DNA of 64,000 nt from Sphingomonas daechungensis (GTDB lineage Bacteria; Pseudomonadota; Alphaproteobacteria; Sphingomonadales; Sphingomonadaceae): positions 930,001 through 994,000 of the forward strand of contig NZ_CP060780.1 in the NCBI RefSeq assembly GCF_014489495.1. Direction: 5' to 3'. Of this stretch, positions 35,661 to 55,398 are shown piece by piece. The stretch's first letter is position 1; every line of letters starts with the position of its first letter. The notes below the pieces were generated by a model that had not been told where the DNA came from, did no database searches, and saw only the letters and a list, made by a program, of their open reading frames with translations. A program made the translations under genes and the position numbers.

Positions 35661-36827
35661 ATGGCACTCACGATTTCGAGCGCATTCGATGCAGGAAACA
35701 TCCGCGTCGCGAAGCAGGACGGCAACACGGTCGATCTCGAGATCGTCAAGGACCACATGTCCGACTTCTACCAGTGGTTCTATTTCCGCCTTGCTGGCGG
35801 CGAGGGCCGCGAAGTCACGCTGCGGATCACCAACTGCGCGGACTCCGCCTATCCGAACGGTTGGCCGGACTACAAGGCGGTCGTCTCGAACGATCGCGAA
35901 GAGTGGCTGCGCGTCCATGATACCAGCTATGCCGATGGCATCCTCACCATCCGCTTCACGCCGGCAACCGACTGCGTCTGGCTCGCCTATTTCGCGCCAT
36001 ACTCGATGGAGCGTCACCACGACCTGATTGCGACGTACGCATCGCTTCCGGTCGTTGAGTATCGTTCGCTCGGCAAGTCGATCGACGGACAGGATCTCGA
36101 TTGCCTGACGATCGGCGACGGCGATCTCACCGTCTGGCTCTACGCTCGCCAGCATCCCGGCGAGAGCATGGCCGAATGGTGGATGGAGGGCGCCCTCGAG
36201 AAGCTCACCGATCCCGACGATCCCGTCTCGCGCGTGCTTCGCCGCGACTGCACCTTCCACATCGTTCCGAACATGAACCCGGACGGGTCGAAGCGCGGCC
36301 ATCTGCGCACCAACGCCGTGGGCATCAATCTCAACCGCGAATGGCATGCGCCGACGGCCGAAAAGAGCCCTGAGGTTCTCTACGTCCGCAATGCGATGGA
36401 CGAGACAGGGGTCGATTTCGCGATGGACGTCCACGGCGACGAAGCCATCCCGGCGAACTTCCTCGCCGGGTTCGAAGGCATCCCGTCGCTGACGGATCGC
36501 CAGCTCGGCCTGTTCAAAACGTTCTCCGATAATCTCGAGCGCATTTCGCCCGACTTCCAGACCCGCCAGGGCTATGAGGTTCCTCCTCCCGGCCAGGCCA
36601 ACATGTCCATGTCCACCACCCAGCTTGCCGAGCGCTTCGGCTGCGTGTCGATGACCCTAGAAATGCCGTTCAAGGACAATTTCGACCTGCCCGACCCGCT
36701 CTACGGCTGGAGCCCGGAGCGGTCGAAGTTCCTGGCTTTCGCCTGCCTGGAAGCGCTCCACGCGACGCTTCCCGACCTCTCGAAGGCAAAGGCGGAGAAG
36801 CCCGCCAAGGACAGGGTCGACGCCTGA
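35661..36827 (+). CDS. M14-family zinc carboxypeptidase, cytosolic type
   Basis: The 388-residue protein starts at an ATG with AAGGT upstream. An N-terminal beta-sandwich (about 1-120, [11 protein letters not shown]) precedes the M14 domain. [15 protein letters not shown] carries the first zinc His and Glu, VPNMNPDG and NLNREW follow, VHGDE gives the third ligand, and LEMPFKDN near the end holds the catalytic Glu. The layout matches the CCP/Nna1-like (cytosolic carboxypeptidase) group. There is no signal peptide, so it acts inside the cell. Its TGA stop shares a base with the gpmA ATG (TGATG), so the two are coupled. Confidence 0.9.
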
Positions 36828-37518
36828 TGCCAACGCTTGTCCTGCTTCGCCACGGCCAATCGCAATGGAACCTGGAGAGCCGATTCACCGGTTGGTGGGA
36901 CGTCGATCTTTCCGCGCAGGGCGTCGACGAAGCGCGCGCTGCCGGCAAATTGCTGAAGGACCGCGGCTATGAGTTCGACCGCTGCTTCACGAGCGTCCTG
37001 ACCCGTGCCATCCGCACGCTTCACCTCGTCCTGCACGAGCTCGACAGCCTGTGGCTGCCGGTCGCCAAGGACTGGCATCTGAACGAGCGGCACTATGGCG
37101 GGCTGACAGGGCTCAACAAGCAGGAGATGATCGACAAGGTCGGGGCCGAGCAGGTGAAGATCTGGCGCCGCTCCTACGATATCCCACCGCCCCGCTCGCC
37201 GACGATAGCGAATATGCCGTCGGCAATGATCGGCGCTATGCCGGCATTCCGGTGCCAAATACGGAAAGCCTGAAGGACACGATTGCCCGCGCATTGCCCT
37301 ACTACGATGCGGAGATTGTCCCGGCGCTGCGACGTGAGGAGCGCGTGCTGGTCGCGGCGCACGGCAATTCGATCCGCGGCATCATCAAGCATCTGTCGAA
37401 CATCGGCGACAATGAAATTGTGGGTGTCGAGATTCCGACCGGCCAGCCGCTGGTCTACGAACTCAACGACGACCTGACAGTCCGCGATTCCTATTATCTG
37501 AGCGAGCGCGCGGCTTAG
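36827..37518 (+). CDS. gpmA: 2,3-bisphosphoglycerate-dependent phosphoglycerate mutase (one frame break)
   Basis: About 230 residues. [12 protein letters not shown] carries the catalytic His, followed by NRFTGW-like sequence (here ESRFTGWWD), [21 protein letters not shown] and, after the break, [13 protein letters not shown] with the second catalytic His. One C missing from the CCCC at 37190-37193 splits the gene; repair gives [20 protein letters not shown]. The enzyme interconverts 3- and 2-phosphoglycerate in glycolysis. Break of an essential-type gene at a homopolymer supports a sequencing origin. Confidence 0.93.
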
Positions 37519-50289: not shown

Positions 50290-52093
50290 ATGACAGAGCT
50301 GAACAAAATCCGGAATTTCTCGATCATCGCGCACATCGATCACGGGAAGAGCACGCTTGCCGACCGCCTGATCCAGCGCACCGGCGGGCTGACCGAGCGC
50401 GAGATGACCCACGGGCAGATCCTCGACAATATGGAGATCGAGCAGGAGCGCGGGATCACCATCAAGGCGCAGACCGTCCGCCTCGCATGGAACGGCTATG
50501 AGCTGAACCTGATGGACACGCCCGGCCACGTGGACTTCGCCTACGAAGTCTCGCGCTCGCTCGCGGCCTGCGAAGGCGCCCTCCTCGTCGTCGACGCCGC
50601 CCAAGGCGTCGAAGCTCAAACTTTGGCGAATGTTTATCAATCGATTGAGCATGACCACGAGATCGTGCCGGTGATCAACAAGATCGACTTGCCCGCCGCG
50701 GACCCGGAGGGGTGCGGCAGGAGATTGAGGAGATCATCGGGCTCGACGCCTCCGAGGCGGTCCTCGCCTCCGCAAAGTCGGGCATCGGGATCGACGAAGT
50801 TCTCCAGGCGATCGTCGACAAGATCCCCCGCCCAAGGGCGACCGCGACGCGCCGCTGAAGGCGATGCTCGTCGACAGCTGGTACGACCCCTATCTCGGCG
50901 TGGTCATCCTGGTCCGCGTGATGGACGGCGTCATCCGCAAGGGCGCGCAGATCAAGTTCATGGCCGCCGGCACCACCCACCTCGTCGACCGCGTCGGCTG
51001 CATGCGCCCGAAGATCGAGCAGCTAAGCGAGCTGGCCGCGGGCGAGATCGGCTTCATCACCGCGCAGATCAAGGAAGTCGCGGAAACCCGCGTCGGCGAC
51101 ACCATCACCGATGCGAAGCGCCCCGCCGCCGAGCCGCTCCCCGGCTTCAAGGAAGTCCAGCCGGTCGTCTTCTGCGGCCTGTTCCCGGTCGACGCCGCGG
51201 ACTTCGAGAAGCTCCGTGACAGCCTCTACAAGCTCCGCCTCAACGACGCCTCGTTCAGCTTCGAGATGGAGACCAGCGCCGCGCTCGGCTTCGGCTTCCG
51301 CTGCGGCTTTCTTGGCCTTCTCCACCTGGAAATCATCCAGGAGCGGCTGACCCGCGAATACGACCTCGACCTCATCACCACCGCGCCGAGCGTGGTCTAC
51401 GAGGTCCACCTGCGCGACGGCAAAAAGCTGGAGATCCACAACCCCGCCGACTGGCCCGACCCGACCGTGATCGAGCGGGTCGAGGAGCCGTGGATCGACG
51501 CGACCATCTACGTCCCCGACAGCTATCTCGGCGCGGTGCTGAAGCTGTGCCAGGACCGCCGCGGCATCCAGAAGGACCTGACCTACGTCGGCACCGGAAG
51601 CCACGCGCGGGCGATGCTGCGCTACGAGCTTCCGCTCAACGAAGTGGTGTTCGACTTCTACGACCGACTGAAGTCGATCAGCCGCGGCTACGCGTCATTC
51701 GATTATCACCAGGTCGGCCACCGCGAGGGCGACCTCGTCAAGATGAGCATCCTGGTCAACGGCGAGCCGGTCGATGCGCTGAGCATGATCGTCTACCGCG
51801 GAAACGCGGAAGCCCGCGGCCGCGGCATGTGCGAGCGGTTGAAGGACCTGATCCCCAGGCACTTGTTCAAGATCCCGATCCAGGCCGCGATCGGCGGCAA
51901 GGTCATCGCCCGCGAGACCATCGCCGCGCTGCGCAAGGACGTGACCGCCAAGTGCTACGGCGGCGACGCCACCCGCAAGCGCAAGCTTCTGGAGAAGCAG
52001 AAAGAGGGCAAGAAGCGCATGCGGGAATATGGCTCCGTGAGCATCCCGCAGGAGGCGTTTATTGCTGCCTTACGTATGGGTGATGAGAGTTGA
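50290..52093 (+). CDS. lepA: Elongation factor 4 (two frame breaks)
   Basis: About 601 residues, the usual length of LepA. The GTPase domain has [14 protein letters not shown] (G1), RGITIKAQT (G2), DTPGHVDF (G3) and NKIDLPAA (G4). The later part has [12 protein letters not shown] and the LepA-specific C-terminal domain ([19 protein letters not shown]). Two breaks split the gene, at GGGG 50709-50712 and CCC 50831-50833. One G and one C restored give [14 protein letters not shown] and [15 protein letters not shown]. This GTPase binds the ribosome and is nearly universal, so the breaks are best read as sequencing errors. Confidence 0.95.
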
Positions 52094-52203
52094 AGCGCTT
52101 TTTGCAGTGGGGAAGCGAGAGACACGACGCGCAAGGGCTGCTTTCTGATCTCCAATCGGCAATCAACAGCGCGGTTGGTGCGATGACTTGACCTGCATCT
52201 GGA

Positions 52204-52800
52204 GTGTCTGCACCCATCGCCGGGAACGCGAGTGGTCGATCGAGGTGTTTATTGTCTTCGCACGCTGAGATTGCTTTGGATATATTACGGGTCGTCTGGG
52301 AGGAGGTGGAGAGCCAACCGATCCCCGCTCCTTCAGATCCGTTGGATAAGTTGATCGACGTAGTCCTTTCCGGCGAGGAGATCGGCTACAAGAAGGCCGT
52401 AGTCATCCAAGCTGCCGGAAAGGCGGCAGACCCAACTCTGGACGCGCAGGCCATGCAGAAGGGCGATGGCAACGAGCGCTCATGGGACGCGAGAGAGTTC
52501 GCAAAACAGAGCTTTGTGAAGTGGAACCTCGAGGCGAACAAGCCTTTTGCTCATTCGGCTGATCCATATGTGAGCAATCCATATCGTATTCCGCGCTTCG
52601 ATTCCTCGCAACGAAGAGGCAGAAAGCGTCCTCGAGAATTCGACAACACGCTTCTTGTTCTCGAGCACCTAGGCGACTCACCGTTCGAGAGTCAGCAAGG
52701 CTTCAGTCTTTCCCGGATGAATTTCAATTTCTCGGCCGACAAAGCGCAAGATATTCGCAGGTGGGCAATGCAGTTCCACCAATTCTCGCTGAGGCTGTAG
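52204..52800 (+). pseudogene. N-terminal fragment of a SacI-like restriction endonuclease
   Basis: A GTG at 52204 opens 198 codons. Residues about 20-155 resemble the N-terminal half of the SacI endonuclease family: DILRVVWEEV, a PSDPLDKLIDVVLSGEE segment, SWDAREFAKQSFVKWNLE and DPYVSNPYRIPRF. The full family is about 340 residues. From roughly 52670 the same bases read, in another frame, as the conserved end of a DNA cytosine methyltransferase. The reading frame after residue 155 is therefore probably chance. A deletion seems to have fused the two genes, leaving the nuclease inactive. Codon use is more AT-rich than the neighbours, which suits foreign origin. Confidence 0.6.
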
Positions 52801-52832
52801 CAAGTCAGATCACTTCCGCGCTCGCCGCCTGA
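52674..52832 (+). pseudogene. C-terminal remnant of a DNA (cytosine-5) methyltransferase
   Basis: In the frame starting at 52674 the DNA reads RLTVRESARLQSFPDEFQF, then RYSQVGNAVPPILAEAVASQ and a short tail to a TGA at 52830-52832. LT.RE.ARLQSFPD and QVGNAVPP are the conserved motifs IX-X end of m5C methyltransferases. The catalytic motif IV (PC) and SAM site are absent, so this is only a tail. It overlaps the last third of the SacI-like frame at offset +2 and also the end of the vsr gene. The parental enzyme was probably the partner of the nuclease. Confidence 0.7.
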
Positions 52833-53278
52833 GGGGCAGCCGTAACTCGCCGAAGTATTGCCTCTAACTTGTCCAGTTTATCAACTGAACATTCCCAAAT
52901 AGTTAGAGTTCGCCAGCCTAGTCGATTCAATTCGACTACGTTCCGAAGGTCGCGCTCCTGAGTTCTGGCTAGCTTTGGCAACCAATAGTTTTGCCGGGTT
53001 CGAGGCAAGCGAGCGTGGCGGCAGCCTGGGTGCTGATGCCAAAAACATCCATGAACCAGTATCGCCAACCGGTACCTTGGCAAAACGACATCCGGCTTTC
53101 CTGGGAGGTCACACCGATGAAGCCGAAACCGAAATCCCATCCTGTGCAGGAGGCGCCTAACACGCATCTCTGGTTTGGTGTCCGTACTCCGGATCTTACG
53201 CATGCGATCCGAGACCACGTTTGCAATTCGAGCATCTCGCGGGAAGCGCGGAAGGGGCGGAGGCTGCGATTCAAGCAT
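52805..53278 (-). CDS. vsr: Very short patch repair endonuclease
   Basis: The 157-residue protein has the Vsr signatures: RSTDTKPEMRVRRLLHRMGFRFRL, LPGKPDVVLPRYRLAILVHGCFWHQHPGC and RDLRNVVELNRLGWRTLTIWEC. Vsr nicks next to T:G mismatches that arise when 5-methylcytosine deaminates, so it normally accompanies a cytosine methyltransferase. Here only the tail of such an enzyme remains next door, in convergent orientation. The gene itself looks intact. AT-rich codons support acquisition with the restriction system. Confidence 0.9.
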   Translation of the reverse strand: MLESQPPPLPRFPRDARIANVVSDRMRKIRSTDTKPEMRVRRLLHRMGFRFRLHRCDLPGKPDVVLPRYRLAILVHGCFWHQHPGCRHARLPRTRQNYWLPKLARTQERDLRNVVELNRLGWRTLTIWECSVDKLDKLEAILRRVTAAPQAASAEVI

Positions 53279-53391: not shown

Positions 53392-53688
53392 CTATCCGAC
53401 CTCCGCAGGCTCCACCGTCAATCGCAACCCCATCGCGCTCAGGATAGCGCGGATCGTCTCGAACGACGGGTTCCCATCTTGGCCGAGCGCCTTGTAGATT
53501 CCCGGACGACTGATGCCGCTGCGCCGAGCCAAATCCGAAATGCCATGGGAACGCGCGACGGTCGCAAGAGCAGTGCGAAGCTCCTCGGGAGTGGAATCCT
53601 CGAGATAGGCATCGAGATAGGCTGCGATGGTTTCGGCGGTGTTGAGATAGTCGGCGGAGTCGAAAGCCGTGGTTTCGATCTTGGCCAT
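53392..53688 (-). CDS. HigA-like antitoxin (addiction module antidote)
   Basis: The 98-residue protein starts at the ATG at 53688, which shares a base with the toxin stop. It has an N-terminal toxin-contact segment (FDSADYLNTAETIAAYLDAYLED) and a helix-turn-helix (GISDLARRSGISRPGIYKALG, about 50-70). Such proteins neutralise a RelE/ParE-fold partner and repress their own promoter. The layout, toxin first, antitoxin second, is typical of HigBA-type and killer/antidote modules. Confidence 0.88.
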   Translation of the reverse strand: MAKIETTAFDSADYLNTAETIAAYLDAYLEDSTPEELRTALATVARSHGISDLARRSGISRPGIYKALGQDGNPSFETIRAILSAMGLRLTVEPAEVG

Positions 53689-53981
53689 CAATCAACCTCC
53701 TTAGCCAAAGCCTTTGCTTCCTCGATGTCCGCGCTCTGCGTCGACTTGTCGCCGCCGCATAGCAAGACGATCAGCTCCGAACCTCGCTGGATAAAATAGA
53801 CGCGATAGCCCGGGCCGTAGAAAATTCTTATCTCCGAGACTCCATCTCCAACCGGAGCGACGTCTCCCAAATTTCCTTGCCCAGCCCGATCAAGCCTCTT
53901 CAGGATGCGAGCCCGGGCGCGTTCGTCACGCAGACCTGCCAACCATGTCGCAAATCGAGTGGTCTGCCGGACCTCGATCAA
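53688..53981 (-). CDS. RelE/ParE-fold toxin (addiction module killer)
   Basis: The 97-residue protein has TTRFATWLAGLRDERARARILKRL and the C-terminal strand pattern EIRIFYGPGYRVYFIQRG, the Gp49/HigB-like killer family of the RelE superfamily. It probably cleaves mRNA at the ribosome. The antitoxin gene follows with a one-base overlap. The module lies just beyond the restriction-modification remnant, so the stretch from about 52.1 to 54.0 kb looks like an accessory island. Confidence 0.88.
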   Translation of the reverse strand: MIEVRQTTRFATWLAGLRDERARARILKRLDRAGQGNLGDVAPVGDGVSEIRIFYGPGYRVYFIQRGSELIVLLCGGDKSTQSADIEEAKALAKEVD

Positions 53982-54231: not shown

Positions 54232-54257
54232 CCTGGTCTCCTTGGCAAGTGCCAGCC

Positions 54258-54280
54258 GTCACGGGAGTGAATCCCGTGAC
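54258..54280. terminator. Perfect hairpin between two minus-strand genes
   Basis: GTCACGGGA and TCCCGTGAC form a 9-bp stem with a 5-base loop. It lies after the stop of the 332-residue hypothetical gene and before the small gene at 54231. There is no T-run, so its role as terminator, processing site or repeat is uncertain. Confidence 0.4.
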
Positions 54281-54351
54281 GTCGATCGGGCTCGCTGTGC
54301 GACCCGTCGTCCGGCCTGGGGCACGCATCTCTTCGCGCTGCTCCGGCGACG

Positions 54352-55350
54352 CTACGCGTCGGCGTCGCTACGCTCGGTGCTCACTCGCGCGCGCCACTCT
54401 TCGATGGCGCGACGCTCGTAGGCCCGTTGCTCCTCCGCGTCCTGTCCATATTGCCATTGCCGGGCGGCGCGCTGTTCATTGTGCTTCATCGTCGCCCACC
54501 TCTCCCTGGTGAAGCCGCGCGCCGGGGTGGTGGTGGCGCCGGTGGAATCCTCGTCGGCGGCGGTGGTGAACTTGCCCTCGACGCTGCGGTGCGCCTTCAG
54601 GAAGCTGACGTCCGGGTGCCTCGGGCGTTCGGGCTGGCCTTCCTCCGTCCACCATTTCCGCCGCGCGGCGTCCAGCCAGTCGGAGAAGGCGGTGCTGGCG
54701 ATCTGAGTGACATCGTGATCGCCGCGGCGCAGCTTGCTCATCACGTCGTGCGTGTCGAAGCCGAGGCGGGTGGCGGTGAGGTCGAACATGACTTCGATGA
54801 AGGTGACCTGGCGAAGGTAGAAATCGGCGGCGACGGTCTGTCCGGCGAGGCGCGCCTGCCGCTCGGCCGCGACCTTCTTCAGGAACTTGGCGCCGATCGC
54901 CTGCATGAGGTCCCACTTCTGCTCGTCGCTCATGACCGGTTCCGGCGCGGGTTCGGGCGGCAGGTCGCGTTTCGAACCGCGGCGCTGAATGCCGGGGACC
55001 TCGCCGGTGTAGGGCGGCTGGGAATCGAGGCCGTTGCGGCGGCGGCCGATGATGATGGCGGCGTCCCAGGACATGCGGAAGCCGTTGGCGGAAGGGGTCT
55101 TGTAGAGCGCCTCGGAGCCGGTGGCGTGCTTGCCCATCTGCCACACGGCGGACTGGACCGTGCCGGTGGCGGCGATGCGGGCGATCAGCTCTCGCTGAAG
55201 CTCCGGGGTCCAGCCGTCGGGGCGCCTGACCTTGCGGACGACGGGATCGAAGTTGAGCAAGGGCGCGATCTCGGGATCGGCGGCTAGCTTTTCGAAGTGG
55301 GGGATGGCGGTGCCGGTTTGAGGCTCGGCGGGCGCTGGGGATGCGTTCAT
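54352..55350 (-). CDS. Hypothetical protein with helical N-terminus
   Basis: About 332 residues from the Met at 55350. The segment DGWTPELQRELIARIAATGT, then VQSAVWQMGKHATGSEALYK, looks like a helix-turn-helix, and similar text occurs in uncharacterised sphingomonad proteins. The middle has a Pro-rich linker, and the C-terminal part is highly charged (EEQRAYERRAIEEWRARV), probably coiled coil. I do not recognise a function. Position next to the accessory island does not say whether it belongs to it. Confidence 0.65.
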   Translation of the reverse strand: MNASPAPAEPQTGTAIPHFEKLAADPEIAPLLNFDPVVRKVRRPDGWTPELQRELIARIAATGTVQSAVWQMGKHATGSEALYKTPSANGFRMSWDAAIIIGRRRNGLDSQPPYTGEVPGIQRRGSKRDLPPEPAPEPVMSDEQKWDLMQAIGAKFLKKVAAERQARLAGQTVAADFYLRQVTFIEVMFDLTATRLGFDTHDVMSKLRRGDHDVTQIASTAFSDWLDAARRKWWTEEGQPERPRHPDVSFLKAHRSVEGKFTTAADEDSTGATTTPARGFTRERWATMKHNEQRAARQWQYGQDAEEQRAYERRAIEEWRARVSTERSDADA

Positions 55351-55398
55351 CCCGCGCCCTGTATGCAAAATCCGGGGCTGTAGGACAGCCCCGCGCGC

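Follow-up and report, generated by a model that had tools for sequence, protein, structure and literature searches.

The window analyzed here comprises 64,000 nucleotides of the genome of Sphingomonas daechungensis (contig NZ_CP060780.1). At positions 52252..52671 of its forward strand we found a 140-codon 5′ stub of a gene for a SacI/EcoT38I-type restriction endonuclease, starting with a TTG at 52252. This assignment is based on a profile match and on alignments with two restriction-modification (RM) operons, L007 and L003. In the profile search, PF09566 (RE_SacI) matched the open reading frame 52204-52800 (198 codons) with 31.6 bits (cut-off 19.3, E 2.1e-7), and the match covered only positions 15-134 of the 276 profile positions. 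When the stub was compared with NCBIfam, no match was obtained at E 0.01. The open frame extends back to a GTG at 52204 but since it is the TTG at 52252 that corresponds to residue 1 of the L007 nuclease in the alignment, the TTG is probably the natural start. Over residues 1-140 the stub shares 64% identity with the L007 nuclease, and 44% identity was calculated for the L003 enzyme. These 140 codons contain no stop, and past the junction described below the nuclease frame continues for 42 codons into unrelated residues. The D...(D/E)xK motif, which is located in the back half of the SacI family and thus beyond the 140 residues, is missing from the stub. In the L007 nuclease it corresponds to GDV...EVKD at residues 236-253, which is aligned in EcoT38I and falls within the missing part. 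The L007 nuclease matches the solved EcoT38I structure (7e8r, E 1.1e-7), and the motif together with general knowledge of the superfamily suggests that D...EVKD of L007 and EcoT38I constitutes the PD-(D/E)XK catalytic site. Folding of the stretch 52094-52260 indicated no special structure (z 1.19).

From position 52671 onward the same strand carries the 3′-terminal 53 codons of a gene for a C5-cytosine methyltransferase (52671..52832), which terminates with TGA at 52830-52832. This 3′ stub, identified by its PF00145 match and by alignment with L007 and L003, specifies a protein end carrying LTVRESARLQSFPD and QVGNAVPP, with LTVRES starting at 52677 and QVGNAV at 52758. PF00145 (DNA_methylase) matched the frame 52563-52832 with 59.9 bits (cut-off 22, E 3.6e-16) at profile positions 269-323 of 324. 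TIGR00675 (NCBIfam) scored 56.8 with this stub, which is under its cut-off of 100.65, as expected of a fragment. The stub is 73% identical to residues 280-331 of the L007 methyltransferase and 65% identical to the L003 enzyme. All L007 residues up to position 279 are missing, and RRLTVRES (280) and QVGNAVPP (309) are kept. The missing part carries FSGAGG (8), PPCQ (71), ENV (110), and QKR (152), which we take to be SAM-binding and catalytic motifs of C5-cytosine methyltransferases, as well as the target-recognition region, which precedes residue 280. An earlier note on this DNA had read the locus as a SacI-like N-terminus followed, in another frame, by a methyltransferase tail, and the two profile matches above cut-off together with the position of QVGNAV confirm this reading.

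A gene for a T:G mismatch endonuclease (vsr, 52805..53278, reverse strand) runs convergently to the methyltransferase stub and shares 28 bases with the end of the latter. This gene encodes 157 amino acids and is apparently intact. Its product matched TIGR00632 with 129.8 bits (cut-off 97.85) and E. coli Vsr (1cw0) with an E-value of 1e-30. All five active-site residues are present (E37, D63, H76, H81, and D110), and they align with E25, D51, H64, H69, and D97 of the E. coli enzyme, as listed in the accessible part of PMC12907096.

The upstream flank of the two stubs is formed by lepA (elongation factor 4; 50290..52093, forward strand), which matched TIGR01393 in two open reading frames. When compared with the LepA of a relative, the window gene is read in three frames with breaks at about 50703-50742 and about 50825, which are due either to sequencing errors or to a real pseudogene. 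An open lepA match was detected in 30 of 31 genomes, the window's own included. A protein from a relative (L074) matches the window at 36821-37509 in two frames, with an overlap at 37147-37231, and there is probably a further frame break near 37.2 kb. The assembly comprises two contigs and is 86.6% complete, and its quality is limited by this incompleteness and by the frame breaks in lepA and probably near 37.2 kb. On the other side of the locus, vsr is adjoined by a HI1420/HI1419-type toxin-antitoxin pair on the reverse strand. The antidote gene (53392..53691, GC 0.60) matched PF21716 and TIGR02684 above cut-off, and the RelE/ParE-type toxin gene (53688..53981, GC 0.57) matched TIGR02683 with 134.2 bits (cut-off 62.85) and PF05973 with 28 bits (cut-off 23.9).

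GC contents of 0.55 and 0.54 were calculated for the nuclease and the methyltransferase stub, and the two stubs and vsr together range from 0.54 to 0.56. Since these values are lower than those of lepA (0.64) and of the gene at 54352-55368 (0.69), they suggest that stubs, vsr, and toxin-antitoxin pair (GC 0.54-0.60) represent an acquired island. The 3′ side of lepA may serve as integration site for mobile islands. The regions downstream of lepA in ten relatives of the genus (L070-L079) showed little match to the downstream genes of the window and provide only a weak empty-site comparison. The protein encoded at 54352-55368 was matched in four of these ten regions (L071, L075, L078, L079), and only in L078 is the match located near lepA (about 0.75 kb). 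Short open reading frames lie between the two genes in L078, and the corresponding genome (G064) has neither a SacI-family nor a vsr match. Two other features of these regions were observed. The 3′ region of lepA is duplicated in two relatives of the genus: in G016 (L079, 6526-6948 and 11829-12251) the copies are 5.3 kb apart, and in G012 (L070, 5047-5201) the second lepA end fragment is broken. A stretch at window positions 54257-54288, possibly a dispersed repeat, recurs with 32 identical bases in G012 (L070, L010), and 32 bases overlapping it recur with 97% identity in G064 (L019); each of these copies lies within about 1.5 kb of lepA.

Few intact relatives of the two stubs were found. A search of genome_contigs with alignment A1 matched only L007, which is located on a contig titled Sphingomonadaceae MAG, and the stub itself gave no match there. 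In L007, as in L003, a nuclease gene is followed on the same strand by a methyltransferase gene and both genes are open. The two stubs align to these operons in matching order and orientation, and L007 was the closest of the compared loci for either stub. In two other loci (L004, L005) the methyltransferase gene is convergent with the nuclease gene, and the nucleases share only 21% and 19% identity with that of L007. Of the 71 genomes of the genus only the window's own was matched by PF09566, and in the family sample 4 of 397 genomes were matched. The latter comprise the window's own genome and three others, including that of L003, in which the matching frames involve 368-400 codons. Among 396 genomes of the order, alignment A1 matched two (the window's own and that of L003). 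The stub had no match among the plasmids, where the L007 enzyme found three distant SacI-family members (<32% identity), and no SacI-family match was detected in the phages and viral_contigs sets.

The comparison with L007 places the junction at 52671..52672 of the forward strand, where nuclease codon 140 is joined out of frame to methyltransferase codon 280 (L007 numbering). Homology to the L007 nuclease stops at the codon CTA (52669-52671) and homology to the methyltransferase begins at 52671, so that no bases lie between the two. For the nuclease, the 14 codons up to 52671 agree with L007 in 28 of 42 bases, and the 6 codons that follow in 3 of 18. For the methyltransferase, the 12 codons starting at 52671 agree in 27 of 36 bases, compared with 5 of 24 for the 8 preceding codons. 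Relative to L007, 1535 bp are absent; relative to L003 about 1531 bp, as reckoned by hand. The junction had previously been expected near 52640-52674, and this expectation is borne out and made more exact. Likewise, order, orientation, and the seamless switch relative to L007 and L003 support the earlier suggestion that a deletion had removed the 3′ part of the nuclease gene and the 5′ part of the methyltransferase gene. With the nearest intact operon (L007) just 64-73% identical, microhomology at the breakpoint is unreadable. The junction was not found in any other genome searched, and among the 71 genomes of the genus the stub is the sole SacI-family match.

Because the two stubs are out of frame with each other, no nuclease-methyltransferase fusion protein is formed. 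Of the intact nuclease and the intact methyltransferase that define a functional Type II RM system, only stubs were found. Since the D...EVK motif and most methyltransferase motifs are missing, both stub enzymes should be inactive. We interpret the locus, with a probability of about 0.88, as the scar left by a single internal deletion in a Type II RM operon of the SacI/EcoT38I family that was probably acquired horizontally. According to this interpretation, the deletion would have taken the roughly 1.53 kb that separate nuclease codon 140 from methyltransferase codon 280, one event would have ended both activities together, and the surviving vsr, which would once have served the deleted methyltransferase, would now be left without it. 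The locus shares with the L007 and L003 operons two genes in the same order and on the same strand, but in it the nuclease is without its C-terminal part and the methyltransferase without its N-terminal part.

Three alternative explanations were considered. The real operon might be intact and the assembler might have dropped 1.5 kb, a scenario that gains some weight from the frame breaks in lepA and probably near 37.2 kb and from the incomplete two-contig assembly. However, the observed breaks resemble small indels, and a seamless loss of 1.5 kb is another type of error. When repeats (direct and inverted) of at least 16 bases were searched around the locus, imperfect ones were present but none was located at the junction, where it might have collapsed. 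The earlier note had named a full-length nuclease or methyltransferase at this locus, or a lack of SacI similarity, as observations that would speak against its reading. Neither PF09566 nor PF00145 gave a second match in the assembly, the similarity to SacI-like enzymes proved genuine, and we consider an assembly error improbable. It is still less probable that the stubs originate from two different RM systems that were joined by recombination. The L007 operon is the best match for both of them, with order and strand alike, and their GC contents are similar (0.55, 0.54), although the well-conserved tails of m5C methyltransferases (33-73% in many loci) identify a system only weakly. That selection maintains the nuclease stub as a small functional protein, for instance a DNA-binding or regulatory remnant, appears least probable of all, since its 140 stop-free codons end in an out-of-frame tail, an open frame is equally expected after a recent deletion, and no free-standing relative of such length occurs among the SacI-family matches in the 71 genus, 397 family, and 396 order genomes.

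In the proposed deletion scar, vsr adjoins the RM genes, but we did not see such an arrangement in the four other SacI-family loci (L003, L004, L005, L007). No Vsr match was found on the L007 contig, where the sequence in front of the nuclease gene amounts to only about 0.28 kb, and the L003 genome (G177) is absent from the genomes with a Vsr match. In the genomes of L004 and L005 (G305, G317) vsr is located on another contig or about 170 kb away. An alignment with an intact relative had been proposed in the earlier note, and it did map the junction on nuclease-methyltransferase operons; the intact nuclease-methyltransferase-Vsr locus that had been envisaged for this purpose is not represented among L003, L004, L005, and L007. 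A vsr gene adjoining an m5C methylase gene is usual in the family. In 26 of 30 vsr loci, the window's stub locus included, a C5-methylase-like stretch was detected within the 1.5 kb flanks (tblastn, E 1e-3), and the remaining loci are L044, L060, L067, and L069.

At the level of whole genomes, vsr was found in 20 of the 71 genomes of the genus and PF00145 in 27, and all 20 vsr genomes are among these 27. Each of the 19 other vsr-bearing genomes has a PF00145 match whose open frame comprises 337 codons or more. The sole PF00145 match of the window genome is the stub in its 89-codon frame, and this is the only such case among the 20. A search of this genome for N4/N6 methyltransferases gave one match (PF01555), which is not a C5 enzyme, and no partner m5C methyltransferase for Vsr was found in the assembly, which is incomplete (86.6%). 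In the family sample, a Vsr match was obtained in 122 of 397 genomes and a PF00145 match in 205 of 397, and both occurred together in 119 of the 122 (the window stub counted). For these counts two draws of 397 were taken as identical genomes, the handles of which agree, and the sampled genomes are mutually related so that Fisher values overstate their independence. The three genomes with a Vsr match only are G186, G196, and G311. In G186 the match is strong (E 1.6e-35, C125:4049-4318) and no PF00145 match was found in its draft assembly (87% complete, 300 contigs). The methylase of G186 may simply have escaped assembly, or G186 may be a second true case of Vsr without methylase. The match in G196 (E 9.6e-4) contains one stop and is doubtful, and that in G311 covers residues 67-135 only.

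A vsr gene beside a methyltransferase remnant is not a new arrangement because it is known from NgoAXIII of Neisseria gonorrhoeae, according to the part of PMC6789123 available to us. There, as in the window, vsr adjoins a truncated m5C methyltransferase gene, of which longer versions exist in related species. In contrast to the window locus, only methyltransferase remnants are described for NgoAXIII, and N. gonorrhoeae has other cytosine-methylating systems. The window locus has a nuclease stub in addition, and its assembly contains no other PF00145 match. From the available part of PMC12907096, it can be seen that Caulobacter cells lacking the methyltransferase ScmA exhibit a DNA damage response and a lower fitness, both of which depend on VsrA, and the authors propose that methylase genes are stabilized by vsr-like genes. 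A Vsr-family gene in a cell without its m5C methyltransferase is common to both organisms, apparently so in the window genome, which looks like a natural counterpart of the Caulobacter mutant. However, in Caulobacter this state was engineered by deletion of scmA, to which vsrA is unlinked, whereas the window case is natural and linked, and it is known from sequence. As for the origin of such states, it is stated in the accessible sections of PMC4176335 that full systems seldom degrade into solitary RM genes and that the genes are often lost completely, and a deletion that ended both genes fits this frequent total loss. The section of PMC4081073 available to us contains nothing on SacI or solitary enzymes.

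Remnants of RM systems are ordinary, but they often do not reveal how a system disappeared. In this case, the one junction suggests that a single step put an end to both RM genes. If only the methyltransferase were lost, the chromosome would be exposed to the nuclease, and for this reason the one-step loss of both genes would be a comparatively safe exit. More interesting than the RM remnant itself is the natural occurrence of a Vsr that is apparently without methylase, a state that proved costly to Caulobacter fitness when it was engineered. It is conceivable, although we regard it as tentative, that Vsr is functional in this strain while m5C methylation has disappeared altogether, which would make the strain a natural example of such a state. 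If this were true, and if vsr penalizes methylase loss as proposed for Caulobacter, the lineage must have escaped the penalty, either through a silent or altered Vsr or because the deletion is very recent. The addiction idea would then be directly testable in a natural strain, and this Sphingomonas may thus offer a natural test of whether Vsr penalizes the loss of its methylase.
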